Positions 4,378 through 63,311 of a stretch of DNA of 64,000 bases are shown here, piece after piece. The position numbers were made by a program, and so were the translations under genes. Under the pieces are notes generated by a model, which worked only from the letters and a program-made list of their open reading frames with translations, was not told the origin of the DNA and did not search any database. The DNA is from Phytopseudomonas daroniae (GTDB taxonomy: Bacteria; Pseudomonadota; Gammaproteobacteria; Pseudomonadales; Pseudomonadaceae). Each line of letters opens with the position of its first letter. Positions within the stretch are counted from its first letter, which is position 1. The DNA is taken from assembly GCF_004327285.1 (NCBI RefSeq), contig NZ_QJUI01000016.1, positions 62,001-126,000 of the forward strand, written 5' to 3'.

Positions 4378-6440
<2,063 letters not shown>

Positions 6441-6522
6441 TCACGGGCGTGGCCCGTGAATGGTGTGATGGAAGGAAGACTAACCCTCCATGGGCACCGA
6501 GAAAAGCGAGTAGTTTGATTTT

Positions 6523-6545
6523 ATACGTGAGAAAAACTCACGTAT
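6523..6545. promoter_or_regulatory. Probable TrpI operator of trpBA (perfect palindrome)
   Basis: Arms ATACGTGAG (6523-6531) and CTCACGTAT (6537-6545) are perfect inverted repeats around AAAAA. This matches the LysR T-N11-A architecture and the GTGAG-N5-CTCAC type of site I know for TrpI upstream of trpB. The centre is 139 bp from the trpB start. A possible minus-strand -10 (TTAGTC, about 6481-6486) would place the operator near -60 of the trpBA start, the normal activator position. Confidence 0.65.
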
Positions 6546-6612
6546 TGGTGATTCTCGACCTTCTTGTCAATCCGCTTTCGGACGCACTAACTCGGAACGC
6601 ACGTGCTGCGTT

Positions 6613-6629
6613 TGCCCGCAAAAGGTGCG
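6613..6629 (+). promoter_or_regulatory. Possible NtrC-like enhancer site
   Basis: TGCCCG-N5-GGTGCG matches 9 of the 12 defined bases of the NtrC consensus TGCACC-N5-GGTGCA. It lies about 88 bp upstream of the predicted sigma-54 start at about 6709. Position and sequence fit an enhancer, but one degenerate site is weak evidence. Confidence 0.3.
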
Positions 6630-6682
6630 CTGAAATCATGGCTCGTTGCCCTGAATGGTTCTGTTCTGGCTCCCAGGATGGC

Positions 6683-6698
6683 TGGCACACATCATGCT
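6683..6698 (+). promoter_or_regulatory. Sigma-54 (RpoN) type promoter for the ABC/amidohydrolase cluster
   Basis: TGGCACACATCATGCT has the -24 element TGGCAC intact and the -12 core TGC, with the required 10 bases between GG and GC. It matches 10 of 12 defined consensus positions. The predicted transcript start is about 6709, some 50 bp before the binding-protein gene and inside the palindrome at 6707-6729. Sigma-54 control suits a nitrogen-compound uptake cluster. Confidence 0.55.
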
Positions 6699-6706
6699 TG
6701 TGTAAT

Positions 6707-6729
6707 TTTATTCAAGTTACTTGAATAAA
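6707..6729. promoter_or_regulatory. Palindromic operator candidate over the predicted transcription start
   Basis: Perfect 10-bp arms TTTATTCAAG (6707-6716) and CTTGAATAAA (6720-6729) flank TTA. The site is far more AT-rich than its surroundings and overlaps the predicted +1 of the sigma-54 promoter. A repressor here would block initiation. The XRE-cupin protein encoded at the end of the cluster is the obvious candidate binder. Confidence 0.55.
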
Positions 6730-6758
6730 TATCCATAGCTTCAAGAAGAGGCCTCGCC

Positions 6759-7604
6759 ATGAACCGTCGTGCCGTGAAAAACCTGTCACTCGCTTTGGCC
6801 ACAGTGCTTGCCAGTTCCCTGGTTCAGGCCGGTGATCTGCTGCAGCGGATCACCCAGGAAAAACAGATCACCATCGCTACCGAAGCGCGCTTCGCACCGT
6901 TCGAGTCCGTGGAGAACGGCAAGATAGTCGGCTATGGCGTGGATCTGATGAATTACGTTCTGGCGGATCTGCCGGGCGTCAAGGTCAAGCAGCTGGATCT
7001 GCCTTTCCAGGGCATTCTACCGGGCCTGGATACCGGAAAGTTCGACTTCGTGGTGACCTCGGTCACCGTCAACAAGGCGCGCTTCGAACAATTCGCCTTC
7101 ACCGTACCGATCGCCGAGTCCACCGTGGCGCTGCTCAAGCGTGGCAATGACGATTCGATCAGTAGCCTGAGCGATCTCAACGGCAAGGTGGTCGGCTCGC
7201 AGAGCGGTTCCGGCCAGTTACAGGTCTTGCAGGCTTATGACGAAAAGCTCAAGGCGGACGGTCAGCCCGGACTCAAGGCCATTCGTCAGTACGTCAGCTT
7301 CGACGAAGCCTACGCCGACCTCGCCCTGGGGCGTCTGGACGGCGTCGCCCAGTCGCTGTCCAACCTCGGCCCACTGATCAAGTCGCGCCCAGGTGTGTTC
7401 ACCACCCTTGGCGACATGCTCGGCCCGCAGACCTACTACGGCTGGGTCGGTCGCAAGGATGACGACAGCGCCAGCCTGGTCAAGCTGTTCAGCGACGGTA
7501 TCGCCCGCGCCAACCGTGACGGCACCATGAAGGCCCTGCAGGAAAAATGGTTCGGCTTCACCATGGATGTGCCGGCCGACGCCATGCCCGAGCCGAGCAT
7601 CTGA
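6759..7604 (+). CDS. ABC transporter substrate-binding protein, polar amino-acid family 3
   Basis: A 281-residue periplasmic binding protein with a Sec signal peptide (MNRRAVKNLSLALATVLASS, cleaved near QAGD). The mature part is a bilobed family-3 solute-binding domain: ITIATEARFAPFESVENGKI at the start, FDFVVTSVTVNKARFEQFAF in the hinge region and VGSQSGSGQLQVL in lobe 2. It delivers a small polar ligand to the two permeases that follow. It is the first gene of an operon with two permeases, an ATPase, an M20 amidohydrolase and a DUF1989 protein. That context favours a nitrogen-rich ligand such as a ureido or N-carbamoyl amino acid over a plain amino acid (inference). Confidence 0.88.
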   Translation: MNRRAVKNLSLALATVLASSLVQAGDLLQRITQEKQITIATEARFAPFESVENGKIVGYGVDLMNYVLADLPGVKVKQLDLPFQGILPGLDTGKFDFVVTSVTVNKARFEQFAFTVPIAESTVALLKRGNDDSISSLSDLNGKVVGSQSGSGQLQVLQAYDEKLKADGQPGLKAIRQYVSFDEAYADLALGRLDGVAQSLSNLGPLIKSRPGVFTTLGDMLGPQTYYGWVGRKDDDSASLVKLFSDGIARANRDGTMKALQEKWFGFTMDVPADAMPEPSI

Positions 7605-7614
7605 GTCGCTGACC

Positions 7615-8271
7615 ATGGATGACTTCGGTGCTCGCTTCGCACTCTACTGGCCTGCTCTGCTCGACGGCGCGCTCACCACACTGTGGCTGTGCCTGGCCGG
7701 CATGCTGCTGGGCTTCGTTCTCGGCGTGCTGATCTATCTGCTGGGCAGCAGCCGCAGCCGAGGTTGCGTGGCGTTCGCCAGGGTCTACGTGAGTTTCTTC
7801 CGTGGCACGCCGATGTTGGCGCAGTTGCTGCTGCTCTTCTATTTGCCCGCCGGGTTGGGGATGGACGTGCCGGCGCTGGTCGCCGCCTGTCTGGCATTGG
7901 CGCTGAACACCGCGGCCTACCAGTCGCAGATCCTGCGCAGCGGTTTCGCCGCCATCCCGGTCGGGCAACTGGAGGCCGCCACGGTGTTCAGCATTGGCCC
8001 TTGGCGTACGTTGCTGCATATCCAGTTGCCGCAAGTGGTGCGTCTGACCCTGCCGGCGCTGATTTCCGAGCTGATCGATGTGATCAAGGTGTCGGCGGTG
8101 GTCTCGGTGATCTCCATCACCGACCTGATGCGGGTCAGCCAGCAGCTGGTTTCGCAGACTTACCGTCCGCTCGAGGTCTATCTCGTCGCCGCGCTGTTCT
8201 ATCTGGCACTGACCAGTCTGCTGGCCCTGCTCGGGCGTCAGCTGGAGCGGCGCTGGCAGGCGCGCAGTTGA
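7615..8271 (+). CDS. ABC transporter permease, His/Glu/Gln/Arg (HEQRo) type
   Basis: A 218-residue inner-membrane permease with about five transmembrane helices. It has the polar amino-acid permease signature FFRGTPMLAQLLLLFY and the EAA loop AAIPVGQLEAATVFSIGPW, which contacts the ATPase. The start at 7615 is chosen because it gives the canonical N-terminus (WPALLDGALTTLWLCLAG). It begins 10 bp after the binding-protein stop, and its TGA overlaps the next ATG by one base. It pairs with the second permease as a heterodimer. Confidence 0.88.
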   Translation: MDDFGARFALYWPALLDGALTTLWLCLAGMLLGFVLGVLIYLLGSSRSRGCVAFARVYVSFFRGTPMLAQLLLLFYLPAGLGMDVPALVAACLALALNTAAYQSQILRSGFAAIPVGQLEAATVFSIGPWRTLLHIQLPQVVRLTLPALISELIDVIKVSAVVSVISITDLMRVSQQLVSQTYRPLEVYLVAALFYLALTSLLALLGRQLERRWQARS

Positions 8272-8918
8272 TGGAGAACTGGATGAACTACCTTGCCGAT
8301 TTCGGCCAGGCACTGCTGGTCACCCTGGGTATCAGTTTTTCCGGCGCGGCGCTGGGTCTGCTACTGGGCTTCGCCCTCAACGCGCTGCGCCTGGCGGTTC
8401 CCGGCATCATTGGCCTGTATCGGTTGTATGTCTGGCTGGTGCGTGGCACACCGTTCCTCGCGCAACTGTTGCTGATCTACTTCGGTCTGCCCGTGCTCGG
8501 TCTGACTCTGGATGCCATCGAGGCGAGCATTCTCGCCCTGTGCCTCTACAGCGCAGCCTATTTTGCCGAGTTGCTGCGCTCGGCCTGGGCCAGTGTACCG
8601 AACGGCCAGTTGGAGGCCGCGCGGGTGCATGGCCTGAGCGGCATCCAGACCTTCTGGCACATCCAGGCGCCCCAGGCGTTGGCATTCGCCCTGCCGCTCT
8701 TGGGTAATCAGGTGATCCTGACCATCAAGGAAAGCGCGGTGGCGTCGATCATCACCGTGCCGGAGCTGACCATGACCGCCGGACAGATCGTGTCCAACAC
8801 CTTTTCCTATGTCGTGCCCTACGTGCTGCTGGTGCTCTCGTACTGGCTGCTGACGCTGCTGGTCGGTTTCGCCGCCGCCGCGCTCGGCCGTCGCGCAACG
8901 CGCTACCTGCGAGGATGA
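8271..8918 (+). CDS. ABC transporter permease, His/Glu/Gln/Arg (HEQRo) type
   Basis: A 215-residue permease paired with the preceding one. It shows the conserved LVRGTPFLAQLLLIYFGLP segment and the EAA loop ASVPNGQLEAARVHGLSGIQ. About five transmembrane helices are visible. The first ATG (8271) shares its A with the stop of the upstream permease (TGATG), implying coupled translation; an alternative ATG lies at 8283. The ATPase gene follows after 4 bp. Confidence 0.88.
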   Translation: MENWMNYLADFGQALLVTLGISFSGAALGLLLGFALNALRLAVPGIIGLYRLYVWLVRGTPFLAQLLLIYFGLPVLGLTLDAIEASILALCLYSAAYFAELLRSAWASVPNGQLEAARVHGLSGIQTFWHIQAPQALAFALPLLGNQVILTIKESAVASIITVPELTMTAGQIVSNTFSYVVPYVLLVLSYWLLTLLVGFAAAALGRRATRYLRG

Positions 8919-8922
8919 CCCG

Positions 8923-9729
8923 ATGAGCAATCTTCCCCTTCTTGAACTGCGCGGCGTGGGCAAGTCCTACGGCGCCAATCGTGTGCTGCAGGGCTTCGAC
9001 CTCAGTGTGCGAGCCGGCGAGATCGTCTCGCTCATCGGCCCCTCCGGCTCCGGCAAGACCACCGCCCTGCGCTGCATGAACTTCCTCGAAGCCTATGACC
9101 AGGGCGAGGTGTGGATCGATGGCCAACTGCTCGGCTACAGCGGCAGCGGACGTCGTCCGAGCGACCAGGACAGCGCCGCCAGCATCGCCGAGGTACGTCG
9201 ACCGCTGTCCATGGTGTTTCAGCAATTCAACCTGTGGCCGCACATGACGGTGCTGGAGAACGTCATGGCACCTCTACTGCTGGGCAAGGGCATGAACAAA
9301 TCCGAGGCGCGTACCTTGGCCGAAAACGCGCTGCAGCGGGTCGGCCTGGCAGCCAAGATGGGCGCCTATCCGGCACGTCTGTCCGGTGGCCAGCAGCAGC
9401 GCGTCGGCATCGCCCGGGCGTTGGCGGTGAAGCCACGTCTGATGCTGCTCGACGAGCCGACCTCGGCGCTCGATCCGGAGCTGGTAGAGGAGGTTCTGCA
9501 GGTGATTCGCAGCCTGGCCAACGACGGCATGACCATGGTCATGGTGACCCACGAGATGAGTTTCGCCGCACAGATATCCAGCCAGGTGGTGTTCATGGAA
9601 GCCGGACAGATCGTCGAGACCGGTGCGCCGGCGGCGATGTTCCAGGCGCCCGCCACCGACCGTCTGCGACAATTCCTCAAACCCTGGTTCAACCGCAGCC
9701 TGACGCCACGCCAGGAGGTGTGCCAATGA
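8923..9729 (+). CDS. ABC transporter ATP-binding protein, amino-acid type
   Basis: A 268-residue nucleotide-binding subunit. Walker A is GPSGSGKT, the Q-loop region reads VFQQFNLWPHMTVLENV, the signature is [14 protein letters not shown], and Walker B/D-loop is LMLLDEPTSALDPE. The H-loop reads MVTHEMSF. A short extra segment between Walker A and the Q-loop (around residues 62-88, rich in Ser/Gly/Arg) is longer than in HisP or GlnQ. The last codon and stop overlap the next gene by 4 bases (ATGA), so the amidohydrolase is firmly in the same operon. Confidence 0.92.
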   Translation: MSNLPLLELRGVGKSYGANRVLQGFDLSVRAGEIVSLIGPSGSGKTTALRCMNFLEAYDQGEVWIDGQLLGYSGSGRRPSDQDSAASIAEVRRPLSMVFQQFNLWPHMTVLENVMAPLLLGKGMNKSEARTLAENALQRVGLAAKMGAYPARLSGGQQQRVGIARALAVKPRLMLLDEPTSALDPELVEEVLQVIRSLANDGMTMVMVTHEMSFAAQISSQVVFMEAGQIVETGAPAAMFQAPATDRLRQFLKPWFNRSLTPRQEVCQ

Positions 9730-10958
9730 ATGCCGAGAGGGTGATGGCGGCGGTGCGTGCCGAACGACTGCATGGCTTGCTCGATACCCTGGCCGGGTTC
9801 GGCGCGCTACAGGCCGGCGGAATGAATCGCCAGGCGCTTTCTGCAGAGGACTTCGATGCACGTGCCTGGCTGATCGGCGAGGCACAGCGCATCGGTTGCC
9901 GCGTGTGGACGGATGCTTGCGCCAACCTGTTCATCCGCCGCGACGGCCTGGAGGATCTGCCGCCGGTGATGACCGGCAGCCACATCGATACCCAGCCCAG
10001 CGGTGGTCATCTGGATGGCTGTTACGGTGTGATGGCCGGTCTGGAATGCCTGCTGGCGCTGCACGATCAGGGCCTGCGCACGCGCCGGCCGATCGAGCTG
10101 GTGGTGTGGACGAACGAGGAGGGCAGTCGTTTCAGCCCCGGCGCCATGGGCTCCAGCGCCTTCGTCGAACCGACCCGCATGGCCGCCTACCGAGACAGCC
10201 TGGATGCCGCGGGCATCAGCGTCGGCGAGGCGCTGGACGAGCATGGCCGACGTTTCGTCGGGCTACCGCTGCGCGAGAAGATTACTGCACACGCCTTCGT
10301 CGAGTTGCATATCGAACAGGGACCGGTGCTGGAACGCGCGGGTGTGCCGCTTGGCGTGGTGTCCGGCATTCAGGGCGTGCGCTGGTACCAGGTGCGCTGC
10401 CGCGGTGCCTCCGCCCATGCCGGCACCACGCCGATGGACATGCGCCAGGATGCCCTGTTGCTGGCCACCGGCTGCCTGCCAGCCATCGATGCCCTGGCCG
10501 AGCGCCTGGCCGGTGCCGACAAACGCCTGACCTTTGGGCGCTGGCAGGTGCTGCCCAACTCGATCAATACGGTGGCCGGGGAGGTGACCTTCAGCATCGA
10601 CTTTCGGCATGCCGACAGTGCCGTGCTGGACGCCTTCGATGCGGCCCTGGCCGACTGCCTGCCCGGGGAGGCCGAGCTGCAGATGCTCTTCAGTCATCCG
10701 CCAGTGGCCTTCGATGCAGCTGTCGTCGAGGTGCTGCAGCAGGCTGCCGACGCTACCGGCGAAGCGTCCCTGAGCCTGCGCTCCGGAGCCTTCCACGATG
10801 CCATGTACCTGGCGACGCATTGCCCGACCGGCATGCTGTTCGTGCCCAGCCGCGACGGTATCAGCCACAACCCCAACGAATACACCGAACCTTCCCAGCT
10901 CGAAGCCGGCGCCCGTGCGCTGGCCTGGAGCCTCGTCCAACTGGCCGAACAAGCCTGA
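9726..10958 (+). CDS. M20-family Zn-dependent amidohydrolase (allantoate amidohydrolase / N-carbamoyl-L-amino-acid hydrolase type)
   Basis: A 410-residue metallohydrolase of the hydantoinase/carbamoylase (HyuC, AllC) branch. Metal-site motifs are GSHIDTQPSGGHLDGCYGV, the catalytic-base segment WTNEEGSRFSPGAMGSS and ELHIEQGPVLE. The dimerisation or substrate segment RGASAHAGTTPMDMRQDA and the final SRDGISHNPNEYT are also typical. The family cleaves C-N bonds of allantoate, ureidoglycolate-like compounds or N-carbamoyl amino acids, releasing ammonia and/or CO2. Coupling to an amino-acid-type importer suggests the imported compound is its substrate. Which one cannot be decided from sequence; no hydantoinase or allantoinase gene is adjacent. 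Confidence 0.88.
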   Translation: MNAERVMAAVRAERLHGLLDTLAGFGALQAGGMNRQALSAEDFDARAWLIGEAQRIGCRVWTDACANLFIRRDGLEDLPPVMTGSHIDTQPSGGHLDGCYGVMAGLECLLALHDQGLRTRRPIELVVWTNEEGSRFSPGAMGSSAFVEPTRMAAYRDSLDAAGISVGEALDEHGRRFVGLPLREKITAHAFVELHIEQGPVLERAGVPLGVVSGIQGVRWYQVRCRGASAHAGTTPMDMRQDALLLATGCLPAIDALAERLAGADKRLTFGRWQVLPNSINTVAGEVTFSIDFRHADSAVLDAFDAALADCLPGEAELQMLFSHPPVAFDAAVVEVLQQAADATGEASLSLRSGAFHDAMYLATHCPTGMLFVPSRDGISHNPNEYTEPSQLEAGARALAWSLVQLAEQA

Positions 10959-10985
10959 CCTGTCCTTGCCCAACTAGGAGCGACC

Positions 10986-11696
10986 ATGAACCATTCGAAC
11001 CACGCCCACGATTACCCCGCCTGCTGCCAGCCTGACAACGGTGCTTCGCTGGGTATCAATGCCACCCTCCGCGAGCCACTGTCGGCCGACGGCATGCCCG
11101 AACTGGGCAAGATCTACACCGTGCCGGCGCGCTGCGGCCGCGCGGTGCGCCTCAAGGCCGGCGAAGTGATCCGCATCACCAACACCCATGGCACCCAGGT
11201 CTGCGACACCTGGCTGTTCAATGCCGAAGACCTGAGCGAATTCCTCTCCATGGAACATGCGCGTGCGCATATCGACCGGGTCATCCCCAAGCCGGGTGAC
11301 GAGCTGTTCAGCAATCGTCGCCGGGCCATCGGCAAGCTGCTCACCGACACCTCGCCAGGTGTGCACGACACCCTGATCGCGGCCTGCGATCTCCATCGCT
11401 ACAGCAACCTCGGCGTCGAGGGGTACCACGACAGCTGTGCCGACAACATGCGTCTGGCCCTGCAGGCCATCGGGCTGCGTGCCCGGGAAGTCCCCCAGCC
11501 GTTCAACCTGTGGATGAACATCCCGGTCAACCCGGACTACAGCATCGAGTGGTTGCCACCCGTATCCAAGGCAGGCGACTACGTGGAGATCCAGGCCGTG
11601 ATGGATTGCGTGGTGGTGATGTCGGCATGCCCGCAGGACATCGTGCCGATCAACGACTTGAATCCGGTGGAAGTGCACTTCGCGGTTACTGCCTGA
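10986..11696 (+). CDS. DUF1989 / urea carboxylase-associated family protein
   Basis: A 236-residue protein of the urea amidolyase-associated (UAAP, DUF1989) family. Hallmarks are GRAVRLKAGEVIRITNTHGT, QVCDTWLFNAED, YHDSCADNMRLAL, PFNLWMNIPV and the C-terminal VMSACPQDIVPIN. Family members occur beside urea carboxylase, and some act as carboxyguanidine deiminases, usually as a two-subunit pair. Here there is one copy and no urea carboxylase nearby, so the reaction is probably different. It starts 27 bp after the amidohydrolase with an AGGAG ribosome site. Conserved Cys and His residues suggest a metal or nucleophile site. Confidence 0.82.
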   Translation: MNHSNHAHDYPACCQPDNGASLGINATLREPLSADGMPELGKIYTVPARCGRAVRLKAGEVIRITNTHGTQVCDTWLFNAEDLSEFLSMEHARAHIDRVIPKPGDELFSNRRRAIGKLLTDTSPGVHDTLIAACDLHRYSNLGVEGYHDSCADNMRLALQAIGLRAREVPQPFNLWMNIPVNPDYSIEWLPPVSKAGDYVEIQAVMDCVVVMSACPQDIVPINDLNPVEVHFAVTA

Positions 11697-11837
11697 AGTA
11701 TTCGAACGTATACGGGCTAGTTTGGTTGGTGACAGGGATTAATTCCCCGCGCACCTTAGGCGATACTGTGCGGCCAGCGGGGTAACCCGCTGCTGCACGT
11801 GGCCACCGAAACGGGTTATCCATTCATCGAGAAGCAC

Positions 11838-12446
11838 ATGCTCAAACCTAGCCATACACCGCCGCCCAAGGCCAATCACACCGATGGCTTGCCCAGCCTT
11901 GGAGTGCGTCTGCGCCACGCCCGCAAGGTCGCCGGCCTGACTCTCAAGCAGGTGGCCACGGTTGCTGGATGTTCGGAAAGTCTGATTTCCAAGCTGGAGA
12001 ACGATGCCGCTTCGCCGTCGCTGGCCATGCTCCACCGTCTCGCCGGTGCATTGGGCAGCAACGTTTCCGAGCTAACGTCGGAGGAGTGGGTATCCGACGA
12101 ACCGGTACTGCGCGCCGGCGAGCGCCCGGTGAAGCGCTTCGTCAAACGCAACAAGGACGGCGACATCGGCCTGGAGCGCATCACCCATTTGCAAAAGGGT
12201 GGATTGCTGCAGGGCAATATCCATATCGTGGCGCCGGGTGTGGCCAGTGATGGTCTGATCGAGCACCCTGGTGAAGAAATGGGTTACGTGCTCGCGGGCA
12301 GCATCGAACTGACCATCGGTGAGCAGTGCTATAGCCTGAAGACGGGGGATGCCTTTCACTTCCCCAGCAACCTGCCCCATGGCTATCGCAACAGCGGTTC
12401 CATCGAGGCACGCATTCTCTGGGTGAATACGCCCGTGACGTTCTGA
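11838..12446 (+). CDS. XRE-family regulator with C-terminal cupin domain
   Basis: A 202-residue regulator. The N-terminal Cro/C1-type helix-turn-helix (about residues 20-75) reads LGVRLRHARKVAGLTLKQVA and CSESLISKLENDAASPSLAM; the C-terminal cupin_2 domain reads EEMGYVLAGSIELTIGEQCY and GDAFHFPSNLPHGYRNSG. This architecture (PuuR/SutR-like) typically senses a small nitrogen metabolite. The start at 11838 is preferred over the in-frame GTG at 11799 because the upstream codons show no family similarity. It sits 141 bp after the DUF1989 gene with its own intergenic region. It probably controls the cluster, perhaps through the palindrome at 6707-6729 (inference). Confidence 0.87.
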   Translation: MLKPSHTPPPKANHTDGLPSLGVRLRHARKVAGLTLKQVATVAGCSESLISKLENDAASPSLAMLHRLAGALGSNVSELTSEEWVSDEPVLRAGERPVKRFVKRNKDGDIGLERITHLQKGGLLQGNIHIVAPGVASDGLIEHPGEEMGYVLAGSIELTIGEQCYSLKTGDAFHFPSNLPHGYRNSGSIEARILWVNTPVTF

Positions 12447-12544
12447 AGGATCGTGCGGATGTGATTCATTCGGCTGGACTGTACCGTTCGATACCGGATA
12501 ATCCTCGCCCTTGATGTGACGTTTACGCACAGGCCGGAGGCAGG

Positions 12545-13213
12545 ATGAAAACAGGATGGTTGTGGATATTCCCAGGTATCGGGGCGCTCCTGCTGGTGAT
12601 TGCGATCGGCATTCAGATCGCTCGCATCAGCGCTGAATCGCAGATGACGCTGACCCAGGGTTCGATCGTGGATCTCGAAGGCGGCTGCCCGACGGTGTCG
12701 TTCATGACACTGGACGGCACCCTCGGTGAGTACCACAGCAGCACCTGCAGCAACCCGCCGTCCTTCGATATTGGTGAGCGGGTTGCACTGTATTACGACC
12801 CGCAGAGCCCTGGCCGCGCGCGCATCGACAGCTTCGGTCAGAACTGGCTGGGTAGTCTGATCGTCGGTGGCATTGGCTCCGTATTCCTGTTGATCGGCCT
12901 GGCTCTCGTGCTGCCGCCGCTGTTCGGCAAGCGTCGCGCCGCCGAGTTGCTGGCCACTGGCACGCCGGTGCAGGCCGAAGTGGTGGATGTCGAACTCAAC
13001 GAGTCGCTGAACATCAATGGTCGCAACCCCTACCGTATCGTCGCCCAGTGGCTGAACCCGCAGACCAACAAGCTGCATGTGTTTCGCAGCGCCAACCTGT
13101 GGTTCGATCCGGGCCCCTACATCACCGATTCTCTGGTTACGGTGATGATCGACCCGGCCAGGCCCAAGCGTTACAGCATGGACACTCGCTTCCTGCCTGA
13201 GCTGGCGGACTGA
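12545..13213 (+). CDS. DUF3592-domain membrane protein
   Basis: A 222-residue protein with an N-terminal transmembrane helix (about residues 5-25) and a second one around residues 100-125 ([20 protein letters not shown]). The extracytoplasmic part between them has the DUF3592 pattern: [18 protein letters not shown] second similar half follows: [20 protein letters not shown]. The function of DUF3592 is unknown. The stop is separated from the trpI start by a single base, so trpI is almost certainly co-transcribed with it and perhaps translationally coupled. Confidence 0.75.
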
Positions 13214-13214
13214 T

Positions 13215-14108
13215 ATGGCCCAGGAGCTGCCGTCATTGAATGCCCTGCATGCCTTCGAAGCGGCGGCGCGGCTGGGCAGCGTGAGCCGTGCCGCAGTCGA
13301 GCTGCACGTCACTCACGGCGCGGTGAGCCGGCAGATCCGTACCCTGGAAGAGCAGCTTGGCGTGGCACTGTTCGTCAAGGAAGGGCGTGGGCTCAGGCTG
13401 ACCGAGGCCGGCATGCGCCTGCGCGATGTCAGCGGCGAGACATTCACCCGGCTGCGTCAGGTGTGTGGCGAGATCCGTCAGCGGGAAGTCGACACACCCT
13501 TCGTGCTCGGCTGCCCGGGCAGCCTGTTGGCGCGTTGGTTCATCCCGCGGCTGGATCGGCTCAATCAGGCCTTGCCCGAGCTGCAGTTGCAGCTATCCAC
13601 CAGCCAGGGCGAGCTGGATCCGCGCAGCCCTCAGGTGGATGCCACCTTGTTATACGCAGAGCCGCCCTGGCCAGCGGACATGCAGGTATTCGAGCTGGCG
13701 CGTGAATCCATCGGCCCGGTGGTGAGCCCACGGCATGTTCGTTTTGCCGAGTTGAGTGAGGCTGCGCCTGGCGCTTTGCTGCGTGAAGCCCTGCTGCACA
13801 CAACCTCGCGCCCCCAGGCCTGGCCGCAATGGGCGGCAGCCATGGGGCTGGAGCCGGCAGAGATGCGTTTAGGCCAGGGCTTCGAGCACCTCTATTACCT
13901 GCTCGAGGCTGCTTCGGCGGGCCTCGGCGTTGCCATCGCTCCGCTGCAACTGGTGGCCGATGATCTCGCTGCAGGGCGGCTGGCCGCGCCCTGGGGCTTC
14001 GTCGAAACCGAGGCGCGCCTGGCGCTCTGGGTGCCGGAGCGGCGTAGCGGCCGGCGCGCCGAGCAGCTTGCCCAGTGGTTGAGAACGGAGTTGCAAGCAG
14101 CGAGTTGA
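13215..14108 (+). CDS. trpI: TrpI, LysR-family activator of trpBA
   Basis: A 297-residue LysR regulator that by memory closely resembles P. aeruginosa TrpI over its whole length: [77 protein letters not shown] and [20 protein letters not shown]. TrpI binds indoleglycerol phosphate and activates trpBA. In Pseudomonas it is normally divergent from and adjacent to trpB. Here it is still in the divergent orientation but 6.8 kb away, behind an ABC/amidohydrolase island and a DUF3592 gene whose stop is one base upstream. A GcvA-type regulator is the main alternative, but the full-length resemblance favours TrpI. Confidence 0.85.
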
Positions 14109-29287: not shown

Positions 29288-29324
29288 GGCCCCTGACTCT
29301 GCAGAGTCAGGGGCCGTTTTCGTT
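29288..29324 (+). terminator. Strong intrinsic terminator after the small exported-protein gene
   Basis: A 28-bp perfect dyad (29288-29315) with 14-bp arms, GGCCCCTGACTCTG and its exact complement, then GTTTTCGTTT. It begins 18 bp after the stop codon. The next gene starts only 28 bp beyond it. Confidence 0.88.
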
Positions 29325-45760: not shown

Positions 45761-45800
45761 CGAACGGGGACGAACAGTCCCCGTTCGCGGTTTTCCCTTT
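45761..45800 (+). terminator. Intrinsic terminator of thiSG
   Basis: Perfect 11-bp arms CGAACGGGGAC (45761-45771) and GTCCCCGTTCG (45777-45787) are followed by CGGTTTTCCCTTTCCC. A smaller hairpin CACCTGC/GCAGGTG (45743-45759) precedes it directly. The tail is interrupted by C residues. Confidence 0.7.
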
Positions 45801-61526: not shown

Positions 61527-63311
61527 TTACAGTGGCAGTGCCATATGGAAGCGCGCGCCCTGGCCAGGCTGGGATTCGGCACCGATGCGCCCGCCATGCA
61601 GCCGGACGATTTCCTTGCACAGTGCCAGGCCGAGCCCGGCGCCACCCTTCTTGCGACCGATTTGTACGAAGGGTTCGAACAGCCTGGCCTGCTGGCCGTA
61701 GGCGATGCCTTCGCCTTCATCCTTGACGCTGATCAGCAGCCGGTCGTCCTGGCGTTGCGCCTGCAGATTGATGGTTCCGGCCTCGGGGCTGTGACGCAGG
61801 GCGTTGTCGATCAGGTGATCGAGTACGCGGTCGATCTGTGCCCGATCCAGATGGATGCGCGGCAGTGCATCGCCCGTCTCCAGCGCCAGACTGACCTGTA
61901 GTGCCTGCGCCTTGCCAGCGTGTCGTTTGGCGGCCTGTTCGAGCAGATCGGGAATGTCGCAAGGCGCCAACTCGAGTTTCTGCACGCCGCTCTGGTAGCG
62001 CGAGAAATTCAGCAGATCCTCGATCAGGTGCACCAGGCGTTCCATTTCCTCGTCGAGGATGCGCACCAGATCGGCTTCGCGGGACTCTTCGGCGAACTTG
62101 CTGCGCTCGCGCAACAGGCCGAACGCCATGTGCATGCCGGTCACCGGTGTGCGCAGCTCGTGGGAGGCGCGCAGCACGAACTCGTTACGGGCTCGCTCGA
62201 AGGCACGCTGTTCGGTGACGTCATGCAGCACCATCACGGCGCCGAGGATATGCCCCTGGCTGTGGCTGACCGGCGTCAGGCTGTACTTGAGCAGGCGGGT
62301 TTCGCCGTTCGCTTCGACCTGCAGATCCGCCAGCCGCTGTTCCAGGCTGTGGCCCTGCAATACGTGCTGCAGCTGGTCATCCAGTTCGGGGCGCGCCAGG
62401 GCCTGGCTGGGGCTTTGACCGAGCGGCTGGTCGTGCCAGCCGAGCTGTCGCTGGGCGACCGGGTTGAAATGTTCCAGCAGGCCATCGCGACCGAAGATCA
62501 ACAGGCCGTCGTCGATGCTGTCGAGCACCGCCTGCAGGCGGTGCTGTTCGGCCATCAGCGCCTCGACGTTGCTGCTCTTGAGCTGGCGCAGGCTTTCCGC
62601 CATGAGGCCGAAGCGGCGGCTCAGCGCAGACAGTTCGGCAACCGGGGTAATCGGCAGCGTTACCTGGAAATCCCCCCGGCCAATCTGATCGGCGGCGCGA
62701 GCCAGGGCATCGATGGGTTGGCCGACCCGGCGGGCGATGGTGTGGGCGGTGATGAAACCGATCACCAATACCGCCAGCCCGACCAGCCCCAACAGCCCGG
62801 CGATCAGCCAGGCGCGCTCGCGGGCTTTGGCTTCCGAGTGCTGCACGGCAGCCACATAGCTCATTTGCAGGGTGTTGAGGCGGTCGCGAACGGTTTCGAT
62901 GATCTTGGCGAAATCGTCATTGACGAGCAACTCGTGGCGCACGGCCAGTGGATCTTCGAGCAGGCGGCTGAATTTCTGATAGTCGGTCTGGATCTCGACG
63001 ATCGCCTGACGGTCACTGTCCGTTGTGTTTGCCTTCAAGCCATCGTCGATCCATTTGCGGATGCGCCGATCGGATTCCTGCAGGCTCTGCACCGTCTGCT
63101 GGTCGAAATCCTCACTGAGCATCAGAAAGAGCTGCTTGCCCAGCTCCTGGCGCAGGTCGAGGCTTTCGCTGATGACCTTCAGGTTGTGTGCCAGCGTCTG
63201 GTTTTGCGACTGGGTAAGCTGCAGCACGCTGAAGATACTCAGCATCAGGCCCAGCAAGGCGACGGTGAGCAGGGCGCTGGTGCTGAGAAACAGCTTGCTG
63301 CGAAGCTTCAT
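61527..63311 (-). CDS. kinB: Sensor histidine kinase KinB
   Basis: A 594-residue inner-membrane kinase. Helix 1 (residues about 8-32), a periplasmic helical sensor, helix 2 ([20 protein letters not shown], about 168-188), HAMP, a PAS domain ([19 protein letters not shown]) and the kinase core follow in order. The phospho-acceptor motif is [15 protein letters not shown], the N box is [16 protein letters not shown], and the G boxes are [11 protein letters not shown] and [19 protein letters not shown]. The resemblance and pairing with algB identify KinB, which acts in alginate and virulence control in P. aeruginosa. The start overlaps the algB stop by 4 bases. Confidence 0.93.

Follow-up and report, generated by a model that had tools for sequence, protein, structure and literature searches.

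A conserved, probable sigma-54 promoter with a candidate XRE-cupin operator over its predicted start, at a putative ureide/carbamoyl nitrogen operon of Phytopseudomonas daroniae

The sigma-54 promoters that are activated by NtrC in E. coli (glnA, glnK, astC, nac) combine a -24/-12 element with NtrC sites further upstream. The nearest described architecture to the one reported here is that of HutC at hutU in Pseudomonas, a nitrogen-catabolic operon with a sigma-54 promoter and a substrate-responsive local repressor, for which the passages on hutU in PMC12977541 describe a repressor-protected region that overlaps the sigma-54 target and name NtrC as an activator of the operon. The XRE-cupin factors of P. 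aeruginosa (PauR, PsdR, ErfA and others), which carry an N-terminal XRE helix-turn-helix (HTH) and a C-terminal cupin domain, are presented as local repressors of transporter and enzyme genes with palindromic motifs where such motifs were derived, and the words "sigma", "RpoN" and "nitrogen" do not occur in the main text of that paper (PMC7901475). In the open-licence literature, we found no paper that joins an XRE-cupin repressor with an RpoN/NtrC promoter.

The locus described here (Table 1) lies in a stretch of 64,000 nucleotides of P. daroniae, referred to as the window, and comprises seven genes that are probably read as a single transcript. Like hutU, it combines a predicted sigma-54 promoter and NtrC-like sites with a local regulator that probably responds to the substrate. 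It differs from the hutU system as described in PMC12977541 in the regulator, which is an XRE-cupin protein with the operator core ATTCAAGTnACTTGAAT instead of a GntR/HutC-family protein with TGTA-N2-TACA, and in the position of the operator, which covers -2 to +21, downstream of the -12 element, whereas the HutC footprint lies over the sigma-54 site. With another regulator and another operator sequence, the system is thus not of the HutC/GntR type and would only work alike; it adds to the kind known from hutU a case in which the predicted repressor at the sigma-54 promoter comes from another family, that of the XRE-cupin proteins. The domain order of the regulator and the transporter and enzyme genes beside it are those of the local XRE-cupin repressors in PMC7901475. 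Compared with the four E. coli promoters named above, which are among the 42 sites of our scoring matrix, an extra substrate-specific operator at +1 is predicted only here.

Table 1. Promoter elements and genes of the operon; positions are those of the window, and promoter distances are counted from the predicted start.
Feature	Position	Strand	Remark
NtrC-like site 1 CGCACTAACTCGGAACG	6583..6599		centre about -118; score 6.5 of 10
NtrC-like site 2 TGCCCGCAAAAGGTGCG	6613..6629		centre 6621 = -88; score 8 of 10
-24 element TGGCAC	6683..6688	+	top matrix match in window
-12 element TCATGC (ATGC variant)	6692..6697	+	TCA in 71/71 loci, beside the TGC used for selection
Predicted transcription start (+1)	6709	+	17-mer centre 6690 + 19
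Operator palindrome TTTATTCAAGT-T-ACTTGAATAAA	6707..6729		covers -2 to +21 with its centre at +10; putative site of the XRE-cupin protein
Family 3 ABC solute-binding protein, first gene	6759..7604	+	
ABC permease	7567..8271	+	ORF as listed; later start likely
ABC permease	8265..8918	+	
ABC ATPase	8923..9729	+	
M20 hydantoinase/carbamoylase-family amidohydrolase	9726..10958	+	TIGR01879 381 bits, cutoff 204
DUF1989 protein	10986..11696	+	PF09347 171 bits; urea-amidolyase-associated models below cutoff
XRE-cupin regulator, predicted repressor	11799..12446	+	HTH + Cupin_2 domains; PuuR model 80 bits, below cutoff 211; GTG 11799 as listed, 11835 used for searches

In the window, TGGCAC (6683–6688) and TGC (6695–6697) stand as GG–N10–GC, the spacing of sigma-54 elements when GG and GC are required to lie 10 bp apart inside YTGGCAY...TGC. 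With a matrix built from the 42 intergenic-sense E. coli sites tabulated in PMC4591121, the element 6683–6697 scores 18.1 bits and is the highest-scoring position of the window when both strands are counted, the next reaching 14.0 bits; the E. coli sites themselves have a leave-one-out median of 15.7 bits, and 11 of the 42 outscore the window element. By the rule given in PMC4591121, an E. coli ChIP-seq study, transcription starts 19 bp past the 17-mer centre, which predicts a start at 6709. An earlier note on this DNA had named the same two elements and the same start base, and had seen a perfect palindrome over it as well as an NtrC-like site about 88 bp upstream. All of these are present, but the palindrome has 11-bp arms around a centre of one nucleotide rather than 10-bp arms around three, and the NtrC-like site TGCCCGCAAAAGGTGCG, centred at -88, is not significant when taken alone in the window (p 0.066 against shuffles). 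RpoN, on which the promoter would depend, is represented in the genome by one match, above cutoff. The -12 box has the ATGC form in all 71 loci compared below, TTGC being the commoner form, and we count this against our main reading. An A at -15 occurs in 5/42 of the E. coli sites (ndh, hyfA, hycA, zraP, fdhF), among them hycA, fdhF and hyfA, which the site table marks as confirmed (PMC4591121).

The sequence ATTCAAGnnnCTTGAAT matches the genome exactly at a single position and with two mismatches at five others, and none of 100 window shuffles contained a match at up to three mismatches. Since perfect palindromes whose arms measure 11 bp or more occur at three further places in the window (29291–29312, which was also counted with wider centres, 45761–45787 and 62524–62545), perfection alone is not unique and the weight rests on conservation. 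A further TTCAAG half-site is found at 6740–6745, between operator and start codon, and was recognized by eye in 19 of the 22 Pseudomonas-type loci at a slightly variable distance.

The relatives were fetched by the DUF1989 protein and not by the promoter, and the best 80 of 84 confirmed stretches were kept. Inclusion required a solute-binding protein more than 50% identical and an XRE-cupin homologue, which left 70 of the 80 relatives and, together with the window, 71 loci; those dropped had matches to the M20 and DUF1989 proteins only (L075, L089, L098), no solute-binding match (L117, L119), or a solute-binding protein below 50% identity and no XRE match (L120–L124). From the titles of their records, the 71 loci were assigned by hand to 22 Pseudomonas-type (two of them Stutzerimonas), 20 Enterobacterales, 28 Burkholderiales and one Acinetobacter locus. 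TGG–N9–TGC, our search criterion, precedes the first gene in all of them, and TGGC–N5–TCATGC together with an operator like ATTCAAGTnACTTGAAT at one fixed offset is found in 70/70 relatives with the cluster and the XRE-cupin gene. This offset was 27 in each of the 70 when it was left free between 15 and 44 bases from the element. The interval from element to start codon differs between loci by tens of bases, the 12 bases of the spacer are not fixed in sequence, and further upstream there is little column conservation across all groups. The element columns outside the selection are C3 in 71/71, A4 in 70/71, position 5 as C in 49 and T in 22, and TCA at 9–11 in 71/71; measured against the E. coli sites, all 71 loci, picked as they were with TGG-N9-TGC, exceed the lower quartile. 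The 17-bp operator core shows no mismatch in 48 loci, one in 13, two in five, three in three and four in two, so that 61/71 have at most one. Neither element was seen before the solute-binding gene of five Halomonas-type clusters without an XRE match. The presence of the elements, their fixed geometry, their conservation and their link to the cluster, treated below for the genus, are plain at the level of sequence.

Some loci depart from this pattern. The right operator arm has decayed to TTCAAGTAACTTTAC or TTCAAGTAACTTTCC in L109, L110, L112, L114 and L115, which belong to Phytobacter, Kosakonia and Mangrovibacter, and these five enteric loci (three to four operator mismatches) still keep xre and the sigma-54 element, which we count against the main reading. 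The TCA at 6692–6694 (-17 to -15), invariant in all 71 first promoters and absent from the second promoters treated below, exceeds what sigma-54 needs, another point against the main reading, and could represent a further contact. A weaker additional copy precedes the main operator by 60–61 bp in three loci (L061 2672, L062 2670, L063 2671; one, one and three mismatches) and might allow looping. A reverse-strand match to sigma-54 element plus operator in L061 and L063 was dismissed, as its coordinates identify it as the near-palindromic main element read backwards beside the extra upstream operator.

Within the genus, the compound promoter with up to three mismatches occurs in 12 of 398 genomes, and these are exactly the genomes with a close DUF1989 cluster, the other 386 having none (hypergeometric P 3.6e-23, a value that ignores relatedness). 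The DUF1989 matches of the 12 genomes have identities of 82% or more, which in G359 applies to residues 66–235 alone, and M20 and XRE matches are adjacent; in 18 other genomes of the genus the DUF1989 homologues are all more distant (44–55% identity) and the compound promoter is absent. When searched by itself as an exact 15-mer, the palindrome was likewise found in 12 genomes of the genus, 10 of them with the cluster, while the cluster genomes G139 and G245 lack the exact 15-mer and have the compound pattern with one mismatch. The two genomes with the 15-mer and without the cluster, G348 and G042, were put down to chance: their 17-mer core has one and two mismatches, the compound pattern is absent, and no TGGCA-type element was seen in the sequences inspected. 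In a sample of 369 genomes of the class, the exact compound pattern was found in the window's own genome only, which speaks for its specificity and is silent on sensitivity.

For the NtrC-like sites, the 250 upstream bp were searched with a weighted TGCACC-N5-GGTGCA pattern, and the scores were compared with those of shuffles. A single site reaches p <=0.05 in 20/20 enteric, 15/28 Burkholderiales and 5/22 Pseudomonas-type loci and in 0/1 Acinetobacter; each of the enteric loci has p <=0.033, with the best sites at -136 to -187. A pair of sites near -118/-88, about three helical turns apart and both scoring at least 6.5, occurs in 20/22 Pseudomonas-type loci versus 0.0 in shuffles, and a pair near -106/-77 in 14/28 Burkholderiales loci versus 0.002, figures that are descriptive because the paired windows were picked after viewing the site positions and the loci are related. 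For the enteric loci, two broad windows between -120 and -60 were tried, and both sites reached 6.5 in 1/20 (0.07 in shuffles). The low single-site rates outside the enteric loci and the lack of such a pair in the enteric ones weigh against the main reading. The sites thus support a part of NtrC in the control of the operon, strongly in the enteric loci and in Pseudomonas more by position than by the strength of a single site, and NtrC may be expected to bind upstream of the promoter.

The XRE-cupin protein is the only regulator within the window's cluster, and a homologue is encoded in all 71 clusters, each with a palindromic operator at the cluster promoter. Its recognition helix, assigned from the position in the HTH, reads CSESLISK (pattern C-S-E-S..S-K.E) and has 7/10 positions invariant in 71/71 cluster regulators. 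The genome has seven further XRE-cupin-like matches, one of which (L146) matches over the HTH only, and in a comparison covering these seven CSES was absent throughout. Since the five Halomonas-type clusters without an XRE match also lack palindrome and sigma-54 element, the largely invariant helix supports the part assigned to this protein, which would bind at 6707–6729. Taken over its full length, the HTH barely exceeds the C-terminal part in conservation (top-residue frequencies average 0.77 vs 0.72), a point against our main reading; the identities of the two parts to the window regulator are 0.62 vs 0.51 in Burkholderiales and 0.68 vs 0.67 in enteric loci. Between the main promoter and xre no further operator copy was seen, except a match with three mismatches in L103, and xre is hence presumably autoregulated through the operon; by consensus, we found no promoter for its basal expression, which likewise counts against the main reading.

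From our point of view, these data are probably explained by an NtrC/RpoN promoter at which the XRE-cupin repressor acts as a gate over +1; our confidence is slightly reduced by the full-length HTH, whose conservation does not clearly stand out. RNA polymerase with sigma-54 would bind at 6683–6697, and under nitrogen limitation phosphorylated NtrC, placed at about -118 and -88, would open the complex. A dimer of the XRE-cupin protein, the product of the last gene, is predicted to sit on the palindrome over +1 and to block opening or promoter escape until a ligand from the pathway, taken up by the cupin domain, releases the block, so that the operon would be on only if nitrogen is short and the substrate is present; the repressor would thereby also limit its own expression. 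The earlier note had suggested such dual control, through RpoN/NtrC in response to nitrogen and through XRE-cupin repression at +1, and had named the conservation of both elements upstream of orthologous clusters as a check. This check came out in its favour, both elements being conserved in 70/70 relatives at the fixed offset, and the NtrC-like sites and the recognition helix point the same way for the presumed binding events. If so, the promoter would represent a compact and portable two-key device, for nitrogen limitation and substrate, whose geometry is kept across several bacterial orders, and the palindrome is the predicted operator of a so-far uncharacterised regulator.

The stretch covered by a closed sigma-54 complex ends upstream of the operator position (-2 to +21). 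Since the operator lies downstream of this stretch and at a constant distance from the -12 element (70/70; 3 bp shorter in the five second promoters), one could speculate that the repressor does not exclude polymerase but locks a loaded closed complex, which NtrC cannot open until the ligand arrives. We regard such a poised two-key promoter as a tentative and rather doubtful refinement.

An activator other than NtrC can be imagined for Pseudomonas, where the sigma-54 promoter could be real but driven by CbrB or another enhancer-binding protein, with carbon or another signal as trigger. CbrAB activates sigma-54 operons such as hut, the Pseudomonas NtrC-like sites are weak singly, and besides one ntrC match above the TIGR01818 cutoff the genome contains many further matches to the NtrC model below it. 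The description of CbrAB as unique to the Pseudomonas family (PMC8871633) suits such an activator in Pseudomonas and at the same time makes NtrC the more likely activator common to the enteric and Burkholderiales loci, in which the same promoter occurs with NtrC-like sites. As the Pseudomonas sites moreover resemble the GCACCA-N3-TGGTGC published in PMC12977541 and stand at shared positions, control by CbrB or its like appears improbable. It appears quite improbable, too, that some other regulator than the XRE-cupin protein of the cluster occupies the palindrome, as might be suspected from the five enteric loci in which half of the palindrome has decayed and XRE is kept. Such a regulator would have to be reconciled with an XRE-cupin protein that is the sole regulator of the window's cluster and present in every locus, with the joint absence of palindrome and XRE from the Halomonas-type clusters, and with the helix described above; known XRE-cupin factors also bind beside their own gene, as far as PMC7901475 describes them.

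One could further ask whether TGGCAY–N3–TCATGC is a promoter at all, or rather a dyad operator like GGCATGnnnCATGCC to which a second regulator binds, in which case the operon would be transcribed from a sigma-70 promoter that escaped recognition. The element is indeed near-palindromic in some loci (e.g. L053, L061), and the invariant TCA of the spacer is unneeded by sigma-54. Its conservation is asymmetric, however, as neither the left-hand T0 and G1 nor the right-hand C10 and A11 have an equally conserved partner (TGG and TGC being selection criteria). In addition, position 5 is in most loci the C that breaks the dyad and fits the sigma-54 consensus, no locus falls into the lowest quarter of the E. 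coli scores, and the second operon carries the TTGC form without TCATGC. No sigma-70-like promoter was found by consensus at 6380–6800, and we hold the dyad operator to be very unlikely. Lastly, the motifs might be chance matches in intergenic DNA. The bare motif is weak evidence, as TGGCACN6TGC occurs 106 times in the genome versus 56 for a reversed control, and TGGCACN5TTGCW with up to one mismatch six times in the window versus 3.0 expected, a number reached by 8 of 100 shuffles. A single offset in all 70 relatives and the distribution in the genus (12/12 vs 0/386) make chance scarcely credible, and the repressor-gated NtrC/RpoN promoter is the reading we retain.

In five loci the same control seems to extend to a second target operon, which follows xre and encodes a BMP-type ABC transporter and a PuuE-like protein (L057 and L058 of Pseudomonas, which have five proteins of the locus 100% identical, and L069, L079 and L094 of Brenneria). 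The PuuE-like protein, by which a putative hydrolase is added, has a polysaccharide-deacetylase fold, its family scores lying below the NCBIfam cutoffs. In 5/5 of these loci the operon is preceded by AGGCATGAA-N2-TTGC and an operator (e.g. L057 8824–8864), with a sigma-54-like element of 16.7–18.6 bits in the four scored. The operator is 3 bp closer than at the main promoter and has no mismatch in the two Pseudomonas and two to three in the three Brenneria loci. It is a separate predicted promoter of the same logic with a TTGC -12 box.

As to the substrate, our literature searches listed no paper on the cluster. In sequence searches, the solved relatives of the M20 protein included carbamoyl-amino-acid, beta-alanine-synthase, allantoate and ureidoglycolate hydrolases, which do not settle the substrate but make a ureide or carbamoyl nitrogen source likely, and the operon would accordingly serve the uptake and hydrolysis of such a compound.

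The operon lies between trpBA and a pair of genes for a DUF3592 protein and a LysR-type regulator (6396–13215). The LysR gene (13215–14108) is regarded as trpI-like because genes like it are directly divergent from trpB in nine relatives; in six relatives (L045–L049, L051), the operon likewise separates trpB from the LysR gene. The relative whose LysR protein is most similar (G001, L157) has the pair next to trpB without the operon, the DUF3592 gene lying between LysR and trpB. The alignment with L157 is kept on the trpB side as far as about 6541, its final stretch being 71% identical, and resumes on the DUF3592 side from about 12522, and from these breakpoints it appears that the operon arrived as a single module that included the NtrC-like sites, the promoter and the operator. 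Upstream of trpB, at 6523–6545, there is a perfect 9-bp inverted repeat, ATACGTGAG-N5-CTCACGTAT, which is only partly alike in L157 and probably belongs to the control of trpBA.
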